Below are positions 30,412 through 57,924 of a stretch of 64,000 bases of DNA, in pieces. The translations under genes and the position numbers were made by a program. Position 1 is the first letter of the stretch. Every line of letters begins with the position of its first letter. Location of the stretch: positions 1,853,985 through 1,917,984 of the forward strand of contig NZ_LT671675.1 of NCBI RefSeq assembly GCF_900143685.1. The letters run 5' to 3'. The stretch comes from Parolsenella massiliensis (GTDB lineage Bacteria > Actinomycetota > Coriobacteriia > Coriobacteriales > Atopobiaceae). The notes under the pieces were generated by a model that did not search any database, was not told the origin of the DNA, and saw only the letters and a list, made by a program, of their open reading frames with translations.

Positions 30412-31380
30412 CTAGCTGGCTGATACGGCGGTATCGGTGCCGGAGACCTCGCTCTTGAGCGCACACACGAGCAGTCCTCGGCCGTTGCCCTTTCCAAAGT
30501 CGTTCTCGTAGTCGCAGGTGCACAGCGTGAGCACGCGCGAGACGTTCGAGACGGCAGCGTCTGCCGAGCCACTCTTTGCCGTGGCCTGCGACAGCGCGTC
30601 CGCGAGGTAGGCGTGGAAGTCATCGTCCGAGGAAAACGTGGTCTGTCGGGCGGCGCCGTTCGTGGCGGCAGACTTGTAGAAGAGCAGCGGCTCGAGCTCG
30701 TAGTTTGCGTCCTCCGTGAGGTACCAGACGGTGTCGACGCCGTTGAAGTAATCCTGGCTGGCGAACTCGTCCACGTCGGTGAACATGGCGCCGTTGTTGA
30801 GGTGGTGGCCGTAGATGAGCGTCTGGCGGTCAACCAAGCCGGGACAGGCGTTCTCGTAGTCCATGGAGATCTGGCCGCCCACGGAGTAGGTGCCCTCGGC
30901 GCTCGTGCGCAGGTATGTGTCGTTCGAGTCGCCCTGGTAGACCGGGAAGTCCACATGCGTGCCGGGGATGTAGATCCAGCCCACGATGTCGGCGTTCACG
31001 GCCTTGAGACCCGCCCAGTCGATGGTGGGCGGCTGGGCCGCGTCATCTGAGACCGTGGCATAGGCGGCGAGCTTGGCGTTGTTCTCGTCCTGGACGTGGT
31101 ACTGGTACTGGGCGTATCCCCACATGCCACCGGCGACGAGCAGCAGCGCCACGCCCACGATGATGAGCAGCGTGGACAGGACGTTGCGACCGCGCCTCTG
31201 CTTGTTTAGGCGAGAGGGCTTGGGGTCACGCGAGCCGCGAGACTTGCGGCCGGTCGTGCGCGAGGCGTGGGACGCGGTGCGGGAGCAAGCGCCGGCGGAG
31301 GCCGGAACGTAGCCGGTCTTCGTCGTGGTTGCGGCGGGGCCGTCTTGCTTGAAGTGCTTTCCGTTCGACTTCTGAGCCAT
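30412..31380 (-). CDS. Class B sortase
   Basis: 322 residues. A basic N-terminal cytoplasmic segment of about 65 residues, one membrane anchor (VLSTLLIIVGVALLLVAGGMWGY, about 67-89) and an extracellular sortase domain. GWIYIPGTHVDFPVYQG, IYGHHLNNGAMF (catalytic His), LTLCTCDYEN (TLxTC catalytic Cys) and a following NGRGLLV (Arg) make it class B. Such transpeptidases attach surface or haem proteins to the wall, or build pili in some actinobacteria. It lies between purE and purF with gaps of 9 and 14 nt, an unexpected place. The only sortase substrate visible here is the giant IPQTG protein at 48717. Confidence 0.88.
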   Translation of the reverse strand: MAQKSNGKHFKQDGPAATTTKTGYVPASAGACSRTASHASRTTGRKSRGSRDPKPSRLNKQRRGRNVLSTLLIIVGVALLLVAGGMWGYAQYQYHVQDENNAKLAAYATVSDDAAQPPTIDWAGLKAVNADIVGWIYIPGTHVDFPVYQGDSNDTYLRTSAEGTYSVGGQISMDYENACPGLVDRQTLIYGHHLNNGAMFTDVDEFASQDYFNGVDTVWYLTEDANYELEPLLFYKSAATNGAARQTTFSSDDDFHAYLADALSQATAKSGSADAAVSNVSRVLTLCTCDYENDFGKGNGRGLLVCALKSEVSGTDTAVSAS

Positions 31381-48716: not shown

Positions 48717-51700
48717 CTAGTTCCTCTTACCCCTCTTGCTCACAACGAGGGCGACGGCGAGGATAGCGACGCCGAGAACCGCGCTAACCACGATGGGTGC
48801 GGACTCGATGGGGTCACCCGTCTGCGGGATGAACTTCGTGGGCGGCGTCGGGGTCGAGGGCTTCGCGGGCTCCTCGGGCTTGGTGTACGTGTTGCGGAAC
48901 ACGCATGCCTCGAGCTCCTCCTGGTTCACACTCGCGATGAGATTGCCCAGTCGATCGTCTTCGACCGTGACGGTGACCTTGCGCTCCGTCTCGTCGTATG
49001 TGACGCCCTGCTGGCCATCGTTCACCTCGGAGATGGTGAACGTGTAGGTGCCGGCTTGCGTGAAGGAGAGCTCGGAGAACGTAACCTGACCGTTCGCGTC
49101 GTTCGTCGCGGTGAGCTCGACACCGCCGCCGGAGAGCTTGAAGGTGAACTGGCCGGCCTTGAGGTCTGCGCCCTCGAGGACCTTAGCTGCGGTGAGCGCG
49201 AGCTTCGTGGACTTGGCGGTGTAGACGTTTTCGAACTCAGCCTCATCCGCATCCACGAGCTCATGAGTAACGTAGAGGGTTCCGTCCCCGTTGTCCACGA
49301 CGGTCGTCGTCACACGGTAGGCGGCATCGCTATACGTAACGCCATTCGCGGTGGTCCCGTGGCCGCGCTCGCGGATCGTGTAGTTGTGGACCCCAGGAGC
49401 GGTGTACTCAATGGGGCTCAGAGCCACATTGCCGGACGCATCGTTCGTGCCCGTGGCAACAACGCGCCCATCCTCGATAAGTTCAAACGTGAACTCGTTC
49501 TCGTCGAGGGTGCGTCCGGTCAGGGTCTTGCGGACCTTGATCTGATCGGTGACGCTCGAAGTGGTGGACGTGACGCTGTAGGAGTTCGTGAAGGTGAAGG
49601 CCGGACCGGCGAGCTCGTTGCCGTTCGCGTCGACGCGAGCGACGGTGAGCTTGCCGAGGCCATTATCCGTAACCCTGATGTACACGACGCGCGTGGACTG
49701 TGCGTCATTCGTGACGCCCTTCACAGAACCGCTCTCGGTGATGGTGTAGCGGAAGGTGCGGGAGCGCTCGCGAACGGGCCCGGCGACAGCTTCGCCATCG
49801 GTCGCGGCGGCTGCGGCGGTATCGGAGACAACGCGCATCAGCCTACGAGACCCACGCCAGGAGGCGGTAGCAACAGTGTCCGCCTCAACGTCATGGTTGG
49901 CAAGGGCCTGAGGTGCTGCCTCGGAAGCGGAGCCGGGCTCCGCAGTGGGCGCGGACTCAGACGCAGCGCCCTCAGACGGCGTGGGAGCGGCTTCCTGAGT
50001 TGCGGGAGGAGCAGTGTCAGGTTCGGAATCGACAACGGGGTTCCCGGTCTCTCCCACCGCAGGCTCGTTGGGCTGCGCGTTAGGCGTGGGCGAGGGTTCG
50101 CCCGGGGCAGCGGCGTCGCCAGCCACGGCGCCCGCACCTTCTGCCTCGCCGGCGGCGTCATTGGCCTCGCCGTTCTCGCCAAGGGCCTTCAGAAGGTCAT
50201 CGAGCTTAAATGTGATCGAGCCAAAGTCGACGTTGCCATTCGCATCGTTCGTGGTCGAGGTGCGGGTGGGCATGGGGGCACCAGCTTCGCCCTCAACGGT
50301 GAAGGTGAACTTCCCGGTGATATCGGTGCCATCAAGGCCTTCGGGCACGCTAAGCTGCTTGGAGCCCTTGAGGCTGATAGAAACGGGCTCGCCCGTCGCG
50401 TACGTGTTGAGGAACGCGAGGCCACCGTTGGGGAGGTCCGCGGTGCAAGTCAGCGTTCCGTCGCCGTTATCCACAACGGTCACGTTGAAGGAGAAGCTCG
50501 ACGCCGTGGACGTCACACCCTTGTCGCTGAGACCGTCAGCCACCTCGTAGGCAACGTACGGAATCGTCCAAGTGTTGCCCGTGCGAGTAGCGAGGCGCTC
50601 GTCAACAAGGCTGGCGAGCTTGGCGCTGTCATAGGACAGGACTCCGAAGTTCACCTGACCGGAGATGTTCGTGGCAGTGGAAACGACCTTGCTGGCGTCG
50701 TTGCCGTAAGCCAGGCGGAAGTTGAAGTCGTTATCGAACATGAGGCCGTTCGTCATGGACTTCGTGCCAACGATAGGACTGGTCTCGCCGGCGGCGGCAT
50801 AGGAGTTCACGAAGGAGACCTTCGCAGCGGCGTTCGCGTCAGAACCGGCAACGTAGGTGTACGCGTTGTCGATACCGGATGAGCTCGTGACGTGCGTCGT
50901 TACCGTGAGCCTGGCAGCAGAGGCGTCATCATCCGTGGTGATCTCGACGTTGTAGCTTGTAGCGTCGTAGGCGACGCCGCCAAGATTGTCGCCCTTCTCG
51001 GTAATGGTGTAGGAGTAGACCTTCCCTACGTCTTCCTGGGTAAACGTGACGCCCGCGGGCGAGCTCACCACAAGGGCCTCGTCCCCGTCAGGGGCTGCGG
51101 AGTTGGCGTGCTCGCCGGCAATCCCGAGCTTGTCGCCATCGCCGTTGGCGACAACGTCAAACTCAAACTCTCCCGCGCTCATGGCTCGGCCATTCATCTT
51201 CTTCGTGACGCTCAGGCCACCAGCGGCGGTGTAGTCGAGGCGAGAGCTATAGGTGTTCGTGAAGACGTTGTTCTCGTTCGTCACGACGGCGCTCATCGTT
51301 CCATTGCCCCGGTCAGCGACCGTTACGGTCACCGTCGCGACGTGGGTGTCGTCAGAGATTCCGGTGATACTGGAGGCGTTCTCGCGAACCTCGTAGACGA
51401 ACGTGCGGGCGCCATCACGCACCATGTCATAGGTGAACGGGATGGTGCCAAACGTAAAGTCTGCCGCCTCGGTGGCGTCGTGGACGGTCACGTTGGTGAC
51501 TTCCTCGCCGTTGACATCAACGGGCAGCGGAGCTCCGTCGGTCTTGGCGCTGATCGTGAAGCTGAACTCGTCTCCCTCGCGCCACTCGCGGCCCTCGAGG
51601 ACCTTGGAGAAGTGGGGGCTCACGAGCTGATCAGACGGGATGCTCGAGTCATACGTGTTGACGAACTCCCTGTCACCAGACACGCGCTCAACGGAAGCCT

Positions 51701-54700
51701 CGAGCTTGCCAGTCTCGGTGTTATCGCGGACGGTGACGCGGAGGGTAGCAACATTGTCAGAGTAGCCCATGCCACCGGCGCTTCCGCGCTCCTCGGTGAC
51801 CCTGTAGTCGTACTGGCCAGGCTGCGTATACACGATGGAGCCAAAGTCGATCATGGCCGCGCCATCGGAAACGTCATCAGGACCGAGGACGACCCTCGTG
51901 GAGGGAGCGCCGTCGTCACCCATGGGGACGGGAGCGCCGTTGACGCCCTCAAGCAGGAAGGCGAAGCTGTCGCCGTCCCGCCAGTCGCGACCCTCAAGGA
52001 CCTTCGTCAGGCCGAAGTCCGCCGTGGCGAAGCTGGCATCCTCGGCATGGTACTTGTTCTCGAACAGGACCCTACGGCTGTCGTCGCTCACAATCTGGCC
52101 GTCGATCTTCGTCGTAACCGTCAGCGTGCCGTCAAAATTGTCGGTGACGGAGATGACTACCTCGTGCGTGTGGTTGTCATAGGTAACGCCAGGGACCTTG
52201 TCCTCGTCGGCAGGGATGATCTCGGCCACGTCGAACGCGTAGGTCTTGTTGGCGTTCTCCGCGTTAAAGACCACGTCAGACAGCTTCGCCATGTCCTCAG
52301 CGATGCCGCTTGCGCGCCTCTGGGTGTTGGAGAAGCTCTTGTCGGAATCGGCGAGCAAGGCAGTTGCCTCGTCAGCCGTCGCAACAGTGGTTCCGGTCTC
52401 GGCGGTGGCATCCTTACCCGTGATGGTGAAGGAGAACACGCCCATATCCATGGAACGGCCGGTGAGGACCTTGCTCACGGTAAGCCCGGGATAGTAGGCA
52501 ACCTCGGTAGGCGTGTAGACGTTCGTGAAAGCCGCGTGATCGGTGACGGCCTTGTCCGCATCGATCGCGGAGGTCGTGTTGTCGTAGGAGACATTCCCGA
52601 GGGCGAGCTTGCCATTGTCGTCAACGATGGTGACGGTTGCGGTGGCGACATGGCGATCCCACGTGATACCAGCGCTATCCTCGGCAGGAGCGTTCTCGCG
52701 AATATTGAAGGTATACTCGCCAGGCTCGATGAAGGTCATCTCGCCGGACTTGAAGTTGACCACGTTACCGTTGCTCTCACGCTCGAGAGACATGTCAGAG
52801 ATGACGCCATTCTCGGGGCCAGAGACGAGGTTCAGGGAGAAGTTAAAGTCGTCCGTATCGAGCATGTCGCGGCCAACAAGGTGCTTCTCGCCCGTGATGG
52901 CACCGGACTCAGTGAACGCCTCGGGCGCATAGGAGTTCTCGAACGCAGCCTCCCCGCGGCTCTCACTCTCGCCTTCGCGGGCATACGTGGCGGAAACCAT
53001 GACGAGGTTCTCGCCGTTGACGGTCTCGTGGGTCACGGTCACGGTCGCGATCCAGACCGTGGTGTCATACGTCATGCCGGGGCGAGGGTCGACAGGGACC
53101 TTCTCGGAAATCTTGTACTGGTAGGTCTTGCCCACGTCCTCGCCCGTGAAGGTGATTCCCTCGAAGACCACGACGCCATGGGCGTTGTTGTTGCCAACAA
53201 GCTCGGTCGCGTCGGCAGGCATGGGAGCGTCGCCCACAGGCGTCAGCGAGAACTCGAACATTCCGGACTGGAGGGACAGCGCGCCGGATGCGTCGTTCAG
53301 TGTCTTCGTGGCGATGGGCGCCCATTCCTGCGAGGCGGCGTCGAAGATGTTCGTGAACCTCGCGACGTTCGTCGTGGCGGCGTCGGGAGAGACGTCGGCA
53401 CCGAGGTCGTCGTGTACGCGTGTAATCTCGGCAGAGGCGTCGAGCGTTCCGTCGTGGTTGTCCTCGACCGTGACGGTTACGGTGAAGAGGGCGAGCGAGG
53501 TCGACACACCGGGCGTCGCCGCTTCCTCGGCGGGCTCGTAAATCTGATAGGTGTAGGTGCTAGGTGCATCGTAGGCGATGTCACCAAAGTTGAAGGCGAC
53601 GGGCGTGCCGGAGCTTGTGCCTTCGGGACTCGTCACGACCACCCTGGAGATGTCTCCCTCGGCACCTTCCGGCATGGGCGCACCGTCGAGACCCTGAAGA
53701 ATGAAGGTGAAGCTATCGCCCGCAAGCCAGGCGCGACCGTTGAGAATCTTCTCGCCGACGAGGTTCTCTCCACCGGAGAGCGTTCCCGTAGCGGAATAGG
53801 TGTTCGTGAATTCCGCCTTAGTCTCGAGCCCAGCCTCGACCACGCCTTCTTGCGTTGTGGAGGGCGAAGTCTCGAAGCCACTCGCGGCTTCCTCGGTCAC
53901 GGTGTAGGCAGTTCCCCGAGCAAGGCCATACACGTAGAGAGTCTCTCCGTGCTTGAGCGTGTGCGTGGCGTTGCCGGCGGCATCAAACCTGAGATCCCAG
54001 GACTCGTCACCGTGGACCGTCCCGTCCTCACCCCTGACGGTTGCCTTGAATGTCTTGCCGGCAGCATCGGGAATCGAGATGTTGAACATGAAGTCGAGGT
54101 CGTTGTAGTAGCCCTCGTCAAAGCCAGCAGGAACAGCGACCGTCTTGGAAATTGCAAGCGTTCCAGGCTGCTCAAGCGAGATGCGGCCATTGTTGCCAAG
54201 GGCGACGTTGACCGTCGTGCCATTCCAGTGAGGGTTGATGATGGTGGAGGCAGTTGCCGTTGCGTTGTTATCCTTATCGGTACGAAGCTCGTTGATGTAG
54301 GTGAGGCGGCGCGAACCCTTCTTCAGGATGAGATATCCGGATTCATCAGTGGCGATTGCACCCGTAACACCCTCGGCAACGCTGCCGGGGAAGGAGACCA
54401 CGCTCGAAGCCCTGGTCGCCTTTCCATCAGCAATGTCATACCAAGAACTCTCGTAGTAATACGTCACGGAACCGTTCAGCGGACCACGAGCGCGCTGAGT
54501 GCACTCGGCGTCGAGATAGAGCTGAGCGTCTTCGGTGATGTAGTAGTACCTGTTACCCGTCGCGGGAGTGAACGCGGACATCGTGTCGCCGTCCGCCCCA
54601 CCGGAGTACGCGTTCGCGAGGAAGTAAACCTTCCCCTCCGCATCCGTGTGGTTGGCAATGTAGTCCGCCATGGCCTCGTCAGGATTCGCGAGAAGGTCAA

Positions 54701-56183
54701 TCGCCTCTTCCTTGAGGCTCGACCCGTAGAATACGCGGATGGGGAGCGTCAGCGTCACGTCACCGGTTCCCGCATCCTCATCGACGTTGAAATGACGAAG
54801 CGGAATGAGAGATGCCGGAATGGAGACGGTCACCTTGTCGCCAGTCCGGGCAACATCGGAGCGCTCGACGCGAATAATGGCGTCGGCGAGGTCGCCCGTG
54901 GGATAGAGCACGTTGCCGGCCGCGCCATGGAATGTGTAGGTATCGACGTTGCCAGAGGTGGAGACATCGGGATTGGAGAAGACCTTGCTGGCAAAGACAA
55001 TGCTCTCGAAGCTGTCGACCTTCATGTAGTCGCCCAGCTGATCGGTAAACGTCACGTAGCCAGACGTGTTCTCGGCACCCTCGACGACATCAGTGGGATG
55101 ACCGGCCGCGCTCACGATGTCCTGCGAGATTCCACTAAAGACATCCTTGAGATCGTTGGCGCTCGTCGCGGTCTTATAGAAGTCGGAGTCAGTCGCGCGC
55201 GCACCAAGCTCGTCATACTTCGTTGCAGCGGGATAGTTGCTGGACACGGCGTGCAGGAACTTGTTCTCCTTCGTGGTATTCCATCTGTTGGGATCAGCGG
55301 AAGGATTGGCACCACTCTGGATGCCGACGGTGTAGATGGTGGTTCCGCCGTCCTTGAGGGCCTTGGCGGTGGAAACGGCGGAGTTGGCGACGGACTCGCT
55401 GAAGCTGTTGCTCTCAGTCGGCGTACCGTCTGTGAAGAACACAACGACCGTCTTAGCACCAGGGCGCGGGTTTTCATCGAGTGCCTTTTTGGCCTGGCTC
55501 ATGCCCTCGTCGGCGCGGGTGGCGCCGGCAGGCTCGATCGCGTTGATGCGGGAGGTGATGGTCCCCTTGCCGTCCTGCGTGCAGGCGGTGAGCCCAAGCA
55601 TGCGCTGGCTGTAGTTGTATTTGTATCTGTAGCCGCCAGACCAAGACCAATAGGTATCGTTGCCAATACGCTCCGTGCCGTCGCCGGCAAACTTCACCAC
55701 GGCGACGCGATGCTGCTGGCTTGCGTCTGAGATACCCTCGTTTGCCTTCGCAATCTCGCCGACGAAGGCATTGGCGGCGGCCTTGAGCGCATCGATGCGC
55801 TTGGTGGAGTCACGGTTGCCCATCGAGTCGTTCATCGAGCCAGAGGCATCGAGAACGAGAACGATGTCCAGGGGCGTCGAGGACGTCATCGTCAGGTTTG
55901 ACGTCGATGAGATGGCGGAGAGTGACGTCAGGAAGTCCGAGTCACCCTTCTTGATCGTCATGGTGCCGCCGGCGCCCGTGAGGTCGATGTCGCCATCCGA
56001 GACGGTTTTGTCCGTCCAGATGCGGCCAACGTTCTCCGTCGAATTCTCGAGACCCCAGTTGCGCCACGTTGACGCAGACGAGGGATCGGCGACCGTGGTG
56101 GCGCCAGCCATGGCGGCGAAGGCCGAGACAGGTGTCAACGTAAGGAATATCGCAAACAACAACAGAAGCCTTAGCCGCTTCAT
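48717..56183 (-). CDS. Giant sortase-anchored vWA / isopeptide-domain surface protein
   Basis: 2488 residues. An N-terminal signal peptide (MKRLRLLLLFAIFLTLTPVSAFA) precedes a vWA domain (about 105-380) with the MIDAS start DIVLVLDASGSMNDS (residues 106-120). From about residue 674 there are about twelve beta-sandwich domains of Spy0128/pilin type (the first closer to DUF7601). Each starts with an '..K.L.GR' lysine and ends in an 'F.N.Y' asparagine, with a conserved Glu in 'Y.I.E' between, the triad that makes internal Lys-Asn isopeptide bonds. Ends lie near residues 789, 944, 1079, 1219, 1374, 1508, 1639, 1791, 1924, 2199, 2319 and 2429. The eighth Spy0128-type domain has Asp (YEVAD) where Glu is expected. 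The C-terminus is FIPQTGD, a TM segment and KRGKRN, a sortase signal. Strong GGAGGAGGTCACC site. Confidence 0.92.
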   Translation of the reverse strand: MKRLRLLLLFAIFLTLTPVSAFAAMAGATTVADPSSASTWRNWGLENSTENVGRIWTDKTVSDGDIDLTGAGGTMTIKKGDSDFLTSLSAISSTSNLTMTSSTPLDIVLVLDASGSMNDSMGNRDSTKRIDALKAAANAFVGEIAKANEGISDASQQHRVAVVKFAGDGTERIGNDTYWSWSGGYRYKYNYSQRMLGLTACTQDGKGTITSRINAIEPAGATRADEGMSQAKKALDENPRPGAKTVVVFFTDGTPTESNSFSESVANSAVSTAKALKDGGTTIYTVGIQSGANPSADPNRWNTTKENKFLHAVSSNYPAATKYDELGARATDSDFYKTATSANDLKDVFSGISQDIVSAAGHPTDVVEGAENTSGYVTFTDQLGDYMKVDSFESIVFASKVFSNPDVSTSGNVDTYTFHGAAGNVLYPTGDLADAIIRVERSDVARTGDKVTVSIPASLIPLRHFNVDEDAGTGDVTLTLPIRVFYGSSLKEEAIDLLANPDEAMADYIANHTDAEGKVYFLANAYSGGADGDTMSAFTPATGNRYYYITEDAQLYLDAECTQRARGPLNGSVTYYYESSWYDIADGKATRASSVVSFPGSVAEGVTGAIATDESGYLILKKGSRRLTYINELRTDKDNNATATASTIINPHWNGTTVNVALGNNGRISLEQPGTLAISKTVAVPAGFDEGYYNDLDFMFNISIPDAAGKTFKATVRGEDGTVHGDESWDLRFDAAGNATHTLKHGETLYVYGLARGTAYTVTEEAASGFETSPSTTQEGVVEAGLETKAEFTNTYSATGTLSGGENLVGEKILNGRAWLAGDSFTFILQGLDGAPMPEGAEGDISRVVVTSPEGTSSGTPVAFNFGDIAYDAPSTYTYQIYEPAEEAATPGVSTSLALFTVTVTVEDNHDGTLDASAEITRVHDDLGADVSPDAATTNVARFTNIFDAASQEWAPIATKTLNDASGALSLQSGMFEFSLTPVGDAPMPADATELVGNNNAHGVVVFEGITFTGEDVGKTYQYKISEKVPVDPRPGMTYDTTVWIATVTVTHETVNGENLVMVSATYAREGESESRGEAAFENSYAPEAFTESGAITGEKHLVGRDMLDTDDFNFSLNLVSGPENGVISDMSLERESNGNVVNFKSGEMTFIEPGEYTFNIRENAPAEDSAGITWDRHVATATVTIVDDNGKLALGNVSYDNTTSAIDADKAVTDHAAFTNVYTPTEVAYYPGLTVSKVLTGRSMDMGVFSFTITGKDATAETGTTVATADEATALLADSDKSFSNTQRRASGIAEDMAKLSDVVFNAENANKTYAFDVAEIIPADEDKVPGVTYDNHTHEVVISVTDNFDGTLTVTTKIDGQIVSDDSRRVLFENKYHAEDASFATADFGLTKVLEGRDWRDGDSFAFLLEGVNGAPVPMGDDGAPSTRVVLGPDDVSDGAAMIDFGSIVYTQPGQYDYRVTEERGSAGGMGYSDNVATLRVTVRDNTETGKLEASVERVSGDREFVNTYDSSIPSDQLVSPHFSKVLEGREWREGDEFSFTISAKTDGAPLPVDVNGEEVTNVTVHDATEAADFTFGTIPFTYDMVRDGARTFVYEVRENASSITGISDDTHVATVTVTVADRGNGTMSAVVTNENNVFTNTYSSRLDYTAAGGLSVTKKMNGRAMSAGEFEFDVVANGDGDKLGIAGEHANSAAPDGDEALVVSSPAGVTFTQEDVGKVYSYTITEKGDNLGGVAYDATSYNVEITTDDDASAARLTVTTHVTSSSGIDNAYTYVAGSDANAAAKVSFVNSYAAAGETSPIVGTKSMTNGLMFDNDFNFRLAYGNDASKVVSTATNISGQVNFGVLSYDSAKLASLVDERLATRTGNTWTIPYVAYEVADGLSDKGVTSTASSFSFNVTVVDNGDGTLTCTADLPNGGLAFLNTYATGEPVSISLKGSKQLSVPEGLDGTDITGKFTFTVEGEAGAPMPTRTSTTNDANGNVDFGSITFKLDDLLKALGENGEANDAAGEAEGAGAVAGDAAAPGEPSPTPNAQPNEPAVGETGNPVVDSEPDTAPPATQEAAPTPSEGAASESAPTAEPGSASEAAPQALANHDVEADTVATASWRGSRRLMRVVSDTAAAAATDGEAVAGPVRERSRTFRYTITESGSVKGVTNDAQSTRVVYIRVTDNGLGKLTVARVDANGNELAGPAFTFTNSYSVTSTTSSVTDQIKVRKTLTGRTLDENEFTFELIEDGRVVATGTNDASGNVALSPIEYTAPGVHNYTIRERGHGTTANGVTYSDAAYRVTTTVVDNGDGTLYVTHELVDADEAEFENVYTAKSTKLALTAAKVLEGADLKAGQFTFKLSGGGVELTATNDANGQVTFSELSFTQAGTYTFTISEVNDGQQGVTYDETERKVTVTVEDDRLGNLIASVNQEELEACVFRNTYTKPEEPAKPSTPTPPTKFIPQTGDPIESAPIVVSAVLGVAILAVALVVSKRGKRN
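49770..50190 (-). other. Disordered insertion inside the ninth isopeptide domain
   Basis: Within residues about 1998-2137 of the giant protein, the sheet is interrupted between SITFKLDDLLKALGENGE and RTFRYTITESG by about 135 residues rich in Pro, Glu, Ala and Ser (GEPSPTPNAQPNEPAVGE, PPATQEAAPTPSEGAASES), ending in a basic WRGSRRLMR segment. The domain before and after is otherwise normal. Confidence 0.75.
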
Positions 56184-56451: not shown

Positions 56452-57924
56452 CTATGCCTTCCCGCGGACCCTGAGTTCGTCGAGCCAGGCATCGAATTCT
56501 CGATAGAGACCAACGCGCGTGGTAACTCCCGCCTTCTCATAAATGGCGGAGATATGCCTCTGTGCCACACGGCGCGAGATGAACAGGCCATCCGCAATCT
56601 CTTGAACACCGAGGTCCGTAGTCAGGAGGGCCTGATACACTTCCCCTTCCCTCGCGGTGAGACCAATCTTCTCGGCGTATAGGGTAAGCGCCTCTTCGCG
56701 AGATGGAAGGGCGGGCTCCCAGATGAGGCCTTCGCCGACCCCCGCCTTCTCCTCGTCCAGGTTCTCCGTAATTCCCCACGCGATGTCGCGGACAAGGACG
56801 AGAAGGCAGACAACCGACAGCAAGCATGACACCGTCGTTGTCACGACCACGCCCAGTGACTCGAAGAGAGGACGCGCAAAGAGAGCGCCCAGAGCGCCCA
56901 CGAGACAGCTGATGGCGCTTCCCATACCTGCAACGATCTCCGGACAAGACGTCTTAGGCGCAACCCTCATGAAACTCGCGCTGAGATACATGACATAGAA
57001 AGAGCCATATATTCCTGTGATGAGAGTTGCGGAGGACATTCCCGCCGGCGTTTCCGCCGCGGGCACCGCCGCAGCGAAAAGGAACATCGCACATATCGTG
57101 ATGAGGGAGCGAAGGCGGCCTTTCTTCAGGTCAAACAACACGCCGACGAGTGGAAGCGAAAGCGAGTAGGCGATCTTGGAGAGACCGGTGCTGAGGATAT
57201 TCCCGTTTGCATAGCTCCAGACAAGAACGCCGTCGAGAAGACCATAGTCGAGGGTCATGGCAGTGGCAGCAACTGCAAGAAGGACAATCGACCCCTTGCT
57301 CACGCCGGATGTCTGCTGTGGCGATGGCTGGCGGGCGTACAACCACCGCCTCGCGGGGCGGCCGGCAAACCACAAAATGACAATCGCACTCAGGGCCACG
57401 CAAATCACAAAGGCCACAGGGGTCATCCCGAGGGCCTCGACAAGATACTGGAGCAGCAAAGCAACACCCATGCCAATTCCAAGCGCTCGCCCAGAGACCG
57501 TGCTCTCGAATGACACGAGGCTAAACCCATAGTGGACGGCGGCGCCAATGTAGCCAAGGGCCAGAATCGTCGCACAGCTCGCAATAAGGAAGCCAGGCAG
57601 GCGAAGGGTCGCCACCATCCCAATGGCTCCGGTGACGCAAAGAGACATCGCGGCGGCAGTGGCAGTTCTTTTCTCCATCGAGCCTGAAAGATAGGATAAA
57701 GCAACCCAAAAGAGGACATAACCAAGCCTCGTAAAGGCGAGCAGAATCGCATATACGCTCCCTATGACGCCAGGCTCCGCAAGGCGAGGAGTACGCCCGA
57801 GCGTTACGGACATGCATAGCTTCCAGGTGAAGAAGTAGAGGGAGAAAGAGGCAACCTCAATGGATAGCGGCCACGAGAGAAGGTGGAAGGGAGCAATATG
57901 CTGGAGCTTTCTAGTTGCGCGCAC
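56452..57924 (-). CDS. LuxR-type regulator with 12-TM membrane domain
   Basis: 490 residues. The first about 400 form twelve hydrophobic segments arranged like an MFS transporter. The C-terminal 70 are a LuxR/FixJ DNA-binding domain: IGLTAREGEVYQALLTTDLGVQEIADGLFISRRVAQRHISAIYEKAGV (about 425-480). Such fused membrane regulators are typical of Coriobacteriia and are thought to sense an unknown ligand. The gene lies 268 nt upstream of the giant adhesin on the same strand, so it is a good candidate regulator of it. TGACC-N-CGA-like repeats occur in the gap. Confidence 0.85.
   Translation of the reverse strand: MRATRKLQHIAPFHLLSWPLSIEVASFSLYFFTWKLCMSVTLGRTPRLAEPGVIGSVYAILLAFTRLGYVLFWVALSYLSGSMEKRTATAAAMSLCVTGAIGMVATLRLPGFLIASCATILALGYIGAAVHYGFSLVSFESTVSGRALGIGMGVALLLQYLVEALGMTPVAFVICVALSAIVILWFAGRPARRWLYARQPSPQQTSGVSKGSIVLLAVAATAMTLDYGLLDGVLVWSYANGNILSTGLSKIAYSLSLPLVGVLFDLKKGRLRSLITICAMFLFAAAVPAAETPAGMSSATLITGIYGSFYVMYLSASFMRVAPKTSCPEIVAGMGSAISCLVGALGALFARPLFESLGVVVTTTVSCLLSVVCLLVLVRDIAWGITENLDEEKAGVGEGLIWEPALPSREEALTLYAEKIGLTAREGEVYQALLTTDLGVQEIADGLFISRRVAQRHISAIYEKAGVTTRVGLYREFDAWLDELRVRGKA

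Follow-up and report, generated by a model that had tools for sequence, protein, structure and literature searches.

The gene at 48717..56183 on the minus strand of the window (the whole analysed stretch of 64,000 nucleotides from a gut-type actinobacterium) very probably encodes a sortase-anchored fibrillar adhesin, i.e., one polypeptide with a stalk predicted to be isopeptide-locked and, at its tip, an integrin-like head with a von Willebrand factor A (vWA) domain. The reading frame is intact and the translation comprises 2488 amino acids, in agreement with the length and position assigned in a preliminary description of this DNA. A strong ribosome site (GGAGGAGG) is located 5' of the ATG, GGAGGAGGTCACC precedes the ORF, and neither a promoter-like site nor a phase-variation tract was found upstream of the gene. 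Inspection of the protein revealed a signal peptide (residues 1-23, 56115..56183, minus strand; MKRLRLLLLFAIFLTLTPVSAFA), which is kept in the orthologues, and at the opposite end (48717..48830, minus strand) the previously noted IPQTG wall anchor, followed by a hydrophobic segment and the basic tail KRGKRN. Pfam assigned a vWA domain (residues 106-292), a DUF7601 domain (residues 674-796) and eleven FctA stretches, the latter reaching 608 bits with the FctA profile (PF12892; curated cut-off 22.1), while NCBIfam recognized the streptococcal pilin isopeptide linkage domain ten times. Thus, one chain combines an adhesive-type domain and tandem stalk domains with a signal peptide and a surface anchor, the last two as read by inspection.

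Cutting the stalk at the FxNxY motif of the last strand yielded twelve domains, all encoded on the minus strand, each with a complete Lys-Glu-Asn triad (Lys on the first strand, Asn on the last). Domain 1 (53790..54173; K680-E764-N794) is of the DUF7601 type, as judged from Pfam and the triad motif. The other eleven are FctA domains, for which profile alignment and triad motif agree unless stated otherwise: domain 2 (53337..53789; K812-E883-N945, also by Pfam), domain 3 (52923..53336; K960-E1027-N1083), domain 4 (52509..52922; K1100-E1163-N1221), domain 5 (52044..52508; K1238-E1321-N1376), domain 6 (51645..52043; K1394-E1464-N1509), domain 7 (51243..51644; K1527-E1601-N1643), which is missing in the G058 orthologue, domain 8 (50793..51242; K1661-E1729-N1793), domain 9 (50394..50792; K1808-E1880-N1926), assigned from alignments, orthologues and an AlphaFold2 model, domain 10 (49572..50393; K1942-E2150-N2200), split by a long insert and assigned from the tandem-domain alignment and AlphaFold2, domain 11 (49215..49571; K2219-E2272-N2319) and domain 12 (48879..49214; K2334-E2386-N2431). 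An initial automatic alignment misplaced the Lys of domain 10 because of the insert and the Glu of domain 1 because of the different family; both residues are plain by motif, that of domain 10 also in the tandem-domain alignment. A recent repeat expansion within the gene was considered and rejected, the best domain pair being 36-39 % identical and long DNA repeats being absent.

The preliminary description had counted about twelve isopeptide-type domains with triads in almost every one. The present analysis specifies one DUF7601 and eleven FctA domains and strengthens the second statement, since the triad is complete in 12/12 domains (11/11 for the FctA domains alone). From their sequences, the aligned positions of the twelve triads would not be expected to arise by chance. 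A profile alignment covered 496 domain stretches, taken from the adhesin and from 38 other proteins comprising two paralogues as well as orthologues and relatives. Its Lys column holds Lys in 474/478 cases (99 %), the Glu column Glu in 490/492 (99.6 %) and the Asn column Asn in 489/489 (100 %); the profile behind this count of about 490 domains was seeded with the adhesin itself, so that domains devoid of the triad could have escaped it. Structure prediction, proposed earlier as a check, gave AlphaFold2 stalk models that match FctB and Spy0128. FctA and DUF7601 both belong to the Lys-Glu-Asn isopeptide families of a published survey, in which proteins with such domains are described as elongated monomeric adhesins (PMC12617251).

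Domain 9 (residues 1798-1930), the eighth of the Spy0128 type, had been reported to carry Asp in place of the catalytic Glu and hence to form a possible weak link or variant bond. Judged by alignments and predicted structure, this Asp variant is a register error: apparently the string YEVAD had been aligned on YTITE, whereas the alternative PYVAYE places Glu1880 at the catalytic site. The latter residue was selected in three alignments (the twelve domains, the 496-domain profile and the tandem-domain alignment). Domain 12 of the same protein reads SEVNDG at the corresponding place, with the same spacing. Two orthologues, reading YTYTAREVTDGL (G058) and YLAYEKADGL (L057) at this site, fit the Glu register only, since the Asp register would point Arg or Lys inward, into the core. 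The AlphaFold2 model covering domains 9-10 (built from 24 sequences; domain 9 mostly with pLDDT >90) places Glu1880 at the end of the strand and Asp1883 in the next loop. A weak or variant link is therefore most improbable, even though YEVAD is alignable with YTITE and the orthologues retain Asp1883; they retain Glu1880 too, and alignments, orthologues and model together give a normal Glu and leave the weak-link idea unsupported.

A feature missed previously is an insert of about 130 residues (about 2004-2133; 49785..50174, minus strand) that separates two strands of domain 10. It has a high content of Ala, Glu, Pro and Gly and is predicted to be disordered (pLDDT mostly <50). Comparable inserts occur at the same position in L048, L049, L057 and L058, including Slackia and another member of the Eggerthellaceae, i.e., in orthologues from two families. 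One may speculate, with the odds clearly against it, that this loop, situated in the stalk portion close to the wall, serves as a functional side arm, e.g., a glycosylated brush or a tether. Such a side arm would be held by an isopeptide-locked domain that resists being pulled open.

AlphaFold2, structure matches and conservation place the adhesive head at residues 24-670 (54174..56114, minus strand), with the vWA domain apparently lying within a split beta-sandwich domain. The vWA domain itself (residues about 106-363; 55095..55868, minus strand) is defined by Pfam, conservation and structure matches with Z scores of 20-24, and its metal ion-dependent adhesion site (MIDAS; D112, S114, S116, T222 and D252) is complete and kept in 29-30 of 30 homologues. 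A search of the PDB with the single sequence gave no match, and profiles were needed. The head model (mean pLDDT 86) was built from an alignment of 30 heads sharing 38-58 % identity with that of the adhesin, and its top ranks in Foldseek were PitA, SpaC, RrgA, Mfa5 and GBS104. VIA-align superimposed it on the vWA domain of Mfa5 with a Z score of 23.8 (2.2 A, 198 residues), on SpaC with 21.5 (436 residues, rmsd 8.4 A) and on the three domains of Mfa5 with 21.6 (328 residues, rmsd 9.7 A). The complete MIDAS and the resemblance of the model to pilus-tip adhesins thus bear out the view of a tip-like vWA head.

In Mfa5, the vWA domain is inserted in a split domain in which Lys111 and Asn518 are joined, with Asp432 nearby (PMC7835359). 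The head of the adhesin has Lys59 on a strand before the vWA domain (invariant in 29/29 heads) and Asp381 on a strand just after it (30/30), and among the 30 heads Asn640, Asn664 and Asn665 are each invariant, giving several candidate partners. The split domain probably contains a thirteenth isopeptide, which would involve Lys59, Asp381 and either Asn640 or Asn664-665. The GBS104-like split Ig domain with a Lys-Asp-Asn isopeptide (PF21426) gave no profile match up to an E value of 5. This probable extra isopeptide domain had gone unnoticed in the preliminary description. The motifs GRIWTDK, ahead of the vWA domain, and LGNNG, ahead of the stalk, hardly vary across the relatives (L057-L093) and may serve as family signatures.

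The likeness of the head to PitA, SpaC, RrgA and GBS104 could point to a tip subunit of a sortase-polymerised pilus, such as RrgA or PitA. The genome is complete (one contig, 2.01 Mb) and two sortases were found in it, neither of which passes for class C: a class B-type enzyme in the window (30412..31380, minus strand; TIGR03064, E 3e-45, just above its cut-off) and a second sortase (L052:4131-7664, minus strand) beside a 909-aa repeat-bearing surface protein, in a locus with ParB- and relaxase-like ORFs nearby that is probably a mobile element. No class C sortase scored above the cut-off in the complete genome, the weak match below the cut-off being to the class B-type enzyme at 30412-31380. 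Moreover, no sortase gene and no pilin gene, be it for shaft or base, adjoins the adhesin gene, and known tip pilins have few stalk domains as against twelve here. A role as pilus tip is accordingly highly unlikely, and since the genome lacks a class C sortase, the adhesin most likely acts as a single chain. The earlier picture of a pilus built as one polypeptide remains apt in this respect, but fibrillar adhesin is the standard name. As a guess, the chromosomal class B-type sortase is the candidate anchoring enzyme; the wall signal looks like class A.

The adhesin gene is part of a conserved order (gyrA, a nuclease-like gene, a LuxR-type gene, the adhesin gene, a small gene, typA), which is kept in two relatives, namely a sister species (head 89 % identical) and a member of a second genus (57 %), the orthologue of the latter being without domain 7. 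The LuxR-type gene directly upstream (56452..57924, minus strand) encodes a protein with a GerE domain and a long hydrophobic N-terminal part, occupies the same place in L048 and L049, and is a possible regulator of the adhesin. The genome contains two paralogues: a 2306-aa protein with DUF11, SpaA, DUF7601 and six FctA domains, ending in LPQTGD (L050:2247-9167, minus strand), and a 1519-aa protein with three FctA domains, ending in MPQTGD (L051:474-5033). A plasmid search gave no match to the adhesin, nor did a first scan of genome contigs with the single protein as query. Head homologues range across the Coriobacteriia and some Lachnospiraceae, and relatives that share this head carry 7-21 FctA domains; they come from Slackia, Eggerthella, Gordonibacter, Collinsella, Olsenella and Lachnospiraceae. 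The homologous adhesins of Collinsella aerofaciens genomes, which make up most of L059-L068, have 10 to 13 FctA domains, with domain pairs within one protein being up to 77 % identical, which indicates that the copy number changed recently in this species.

Taken together, families, triad conservation and predicted folds provide good support for the proposed cross-linked stalk, vWA binding head and sortase anchor, the bonds themselves being predicted. The signal peptide would export the protein, and a sortase would cut at IPQTG and tie it to the wall. Going by the triads, each of the twelve CnaB-like domains would form a Glu-assisted Lys-Asn isopeptide, resulting in a thin, inextensible and protease-resistant stalk, which by the size of the Spy0128 domains may be roughly 50 nm long. 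At its tip, the vWA domain with the intact metal site would be presented on the split beta-sandwich domain, probably isopeptide-locked as well, and may bind a host, food or bacterial ligand. Comparison of the relatives shows that gain and loss of whole domains alters stalk length. That the surface protein instead is a sensor, a scaffold or a carrier of an enzyme has very little probability: Pfam finds no catalytic domain in the protein and the fold of the head is that of known adhesins.

As judged from sequence and predicted folds, the adhesin adds a well-formed new member to a class already known, the isopeptide-stalk fibrillar adhesins. The structure database underlying the published isopeptide survey ends at 1280 residues (PMC12617251), and for this reason the survey could not fully see the long adhesins of the Coriobacteriia, of which the present protein is a clear example. 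With its conserved head and variable stalk length, the family is well suited to identifying the targets to which these bacteria attach.

Compared with known systems, the adhesin shares the single long chain with N-terminal adhesive part with the isopeptide-stalk fibrillar adhesins (PMC12617251), e.g., the giant adhesin of Mobiluncus mulieris (PMC10619420). The latter likewise has tandem cross-linked Ig-like domains, including the Spy0128 type; it differs, however, by a thioester domain and 51 stalk domains, as opposed to a vWA head and twelve stalk domains here, and the isopeptide domains of the present protein are of the FctA and DUF7601 types only. The Spy0128/FctA pilin of Streptococcus pyogenes (PF12892) has family, Lys-Glu-Asn triad and predicted fold in common with the stalk, but comprises two domains and is polymerised by sortase, whereas the adhesin unites eleven FctA copies in one chain. 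With PitA, SpaC, RrgA, GBS104 and Mfa5 it shares a MIDAS-bearing vWA domain that seems to sit within a split beta-sandwich domain, and with Mfa5 in particular a Lys before and an Asp just after the vWA domain (Lys111 and Asp432 in Mfa5; PMC7835359). It departs from these vWA pilus tips in apparently not being part of a polymer, in an identity of 10-23 % and in an extra beta-rich region between vWA domain and stalk. The head homologues of the taxa named above have head, stalk domains and kind of anchor in common with the adhesin and differ from it in the number of FctA domains.
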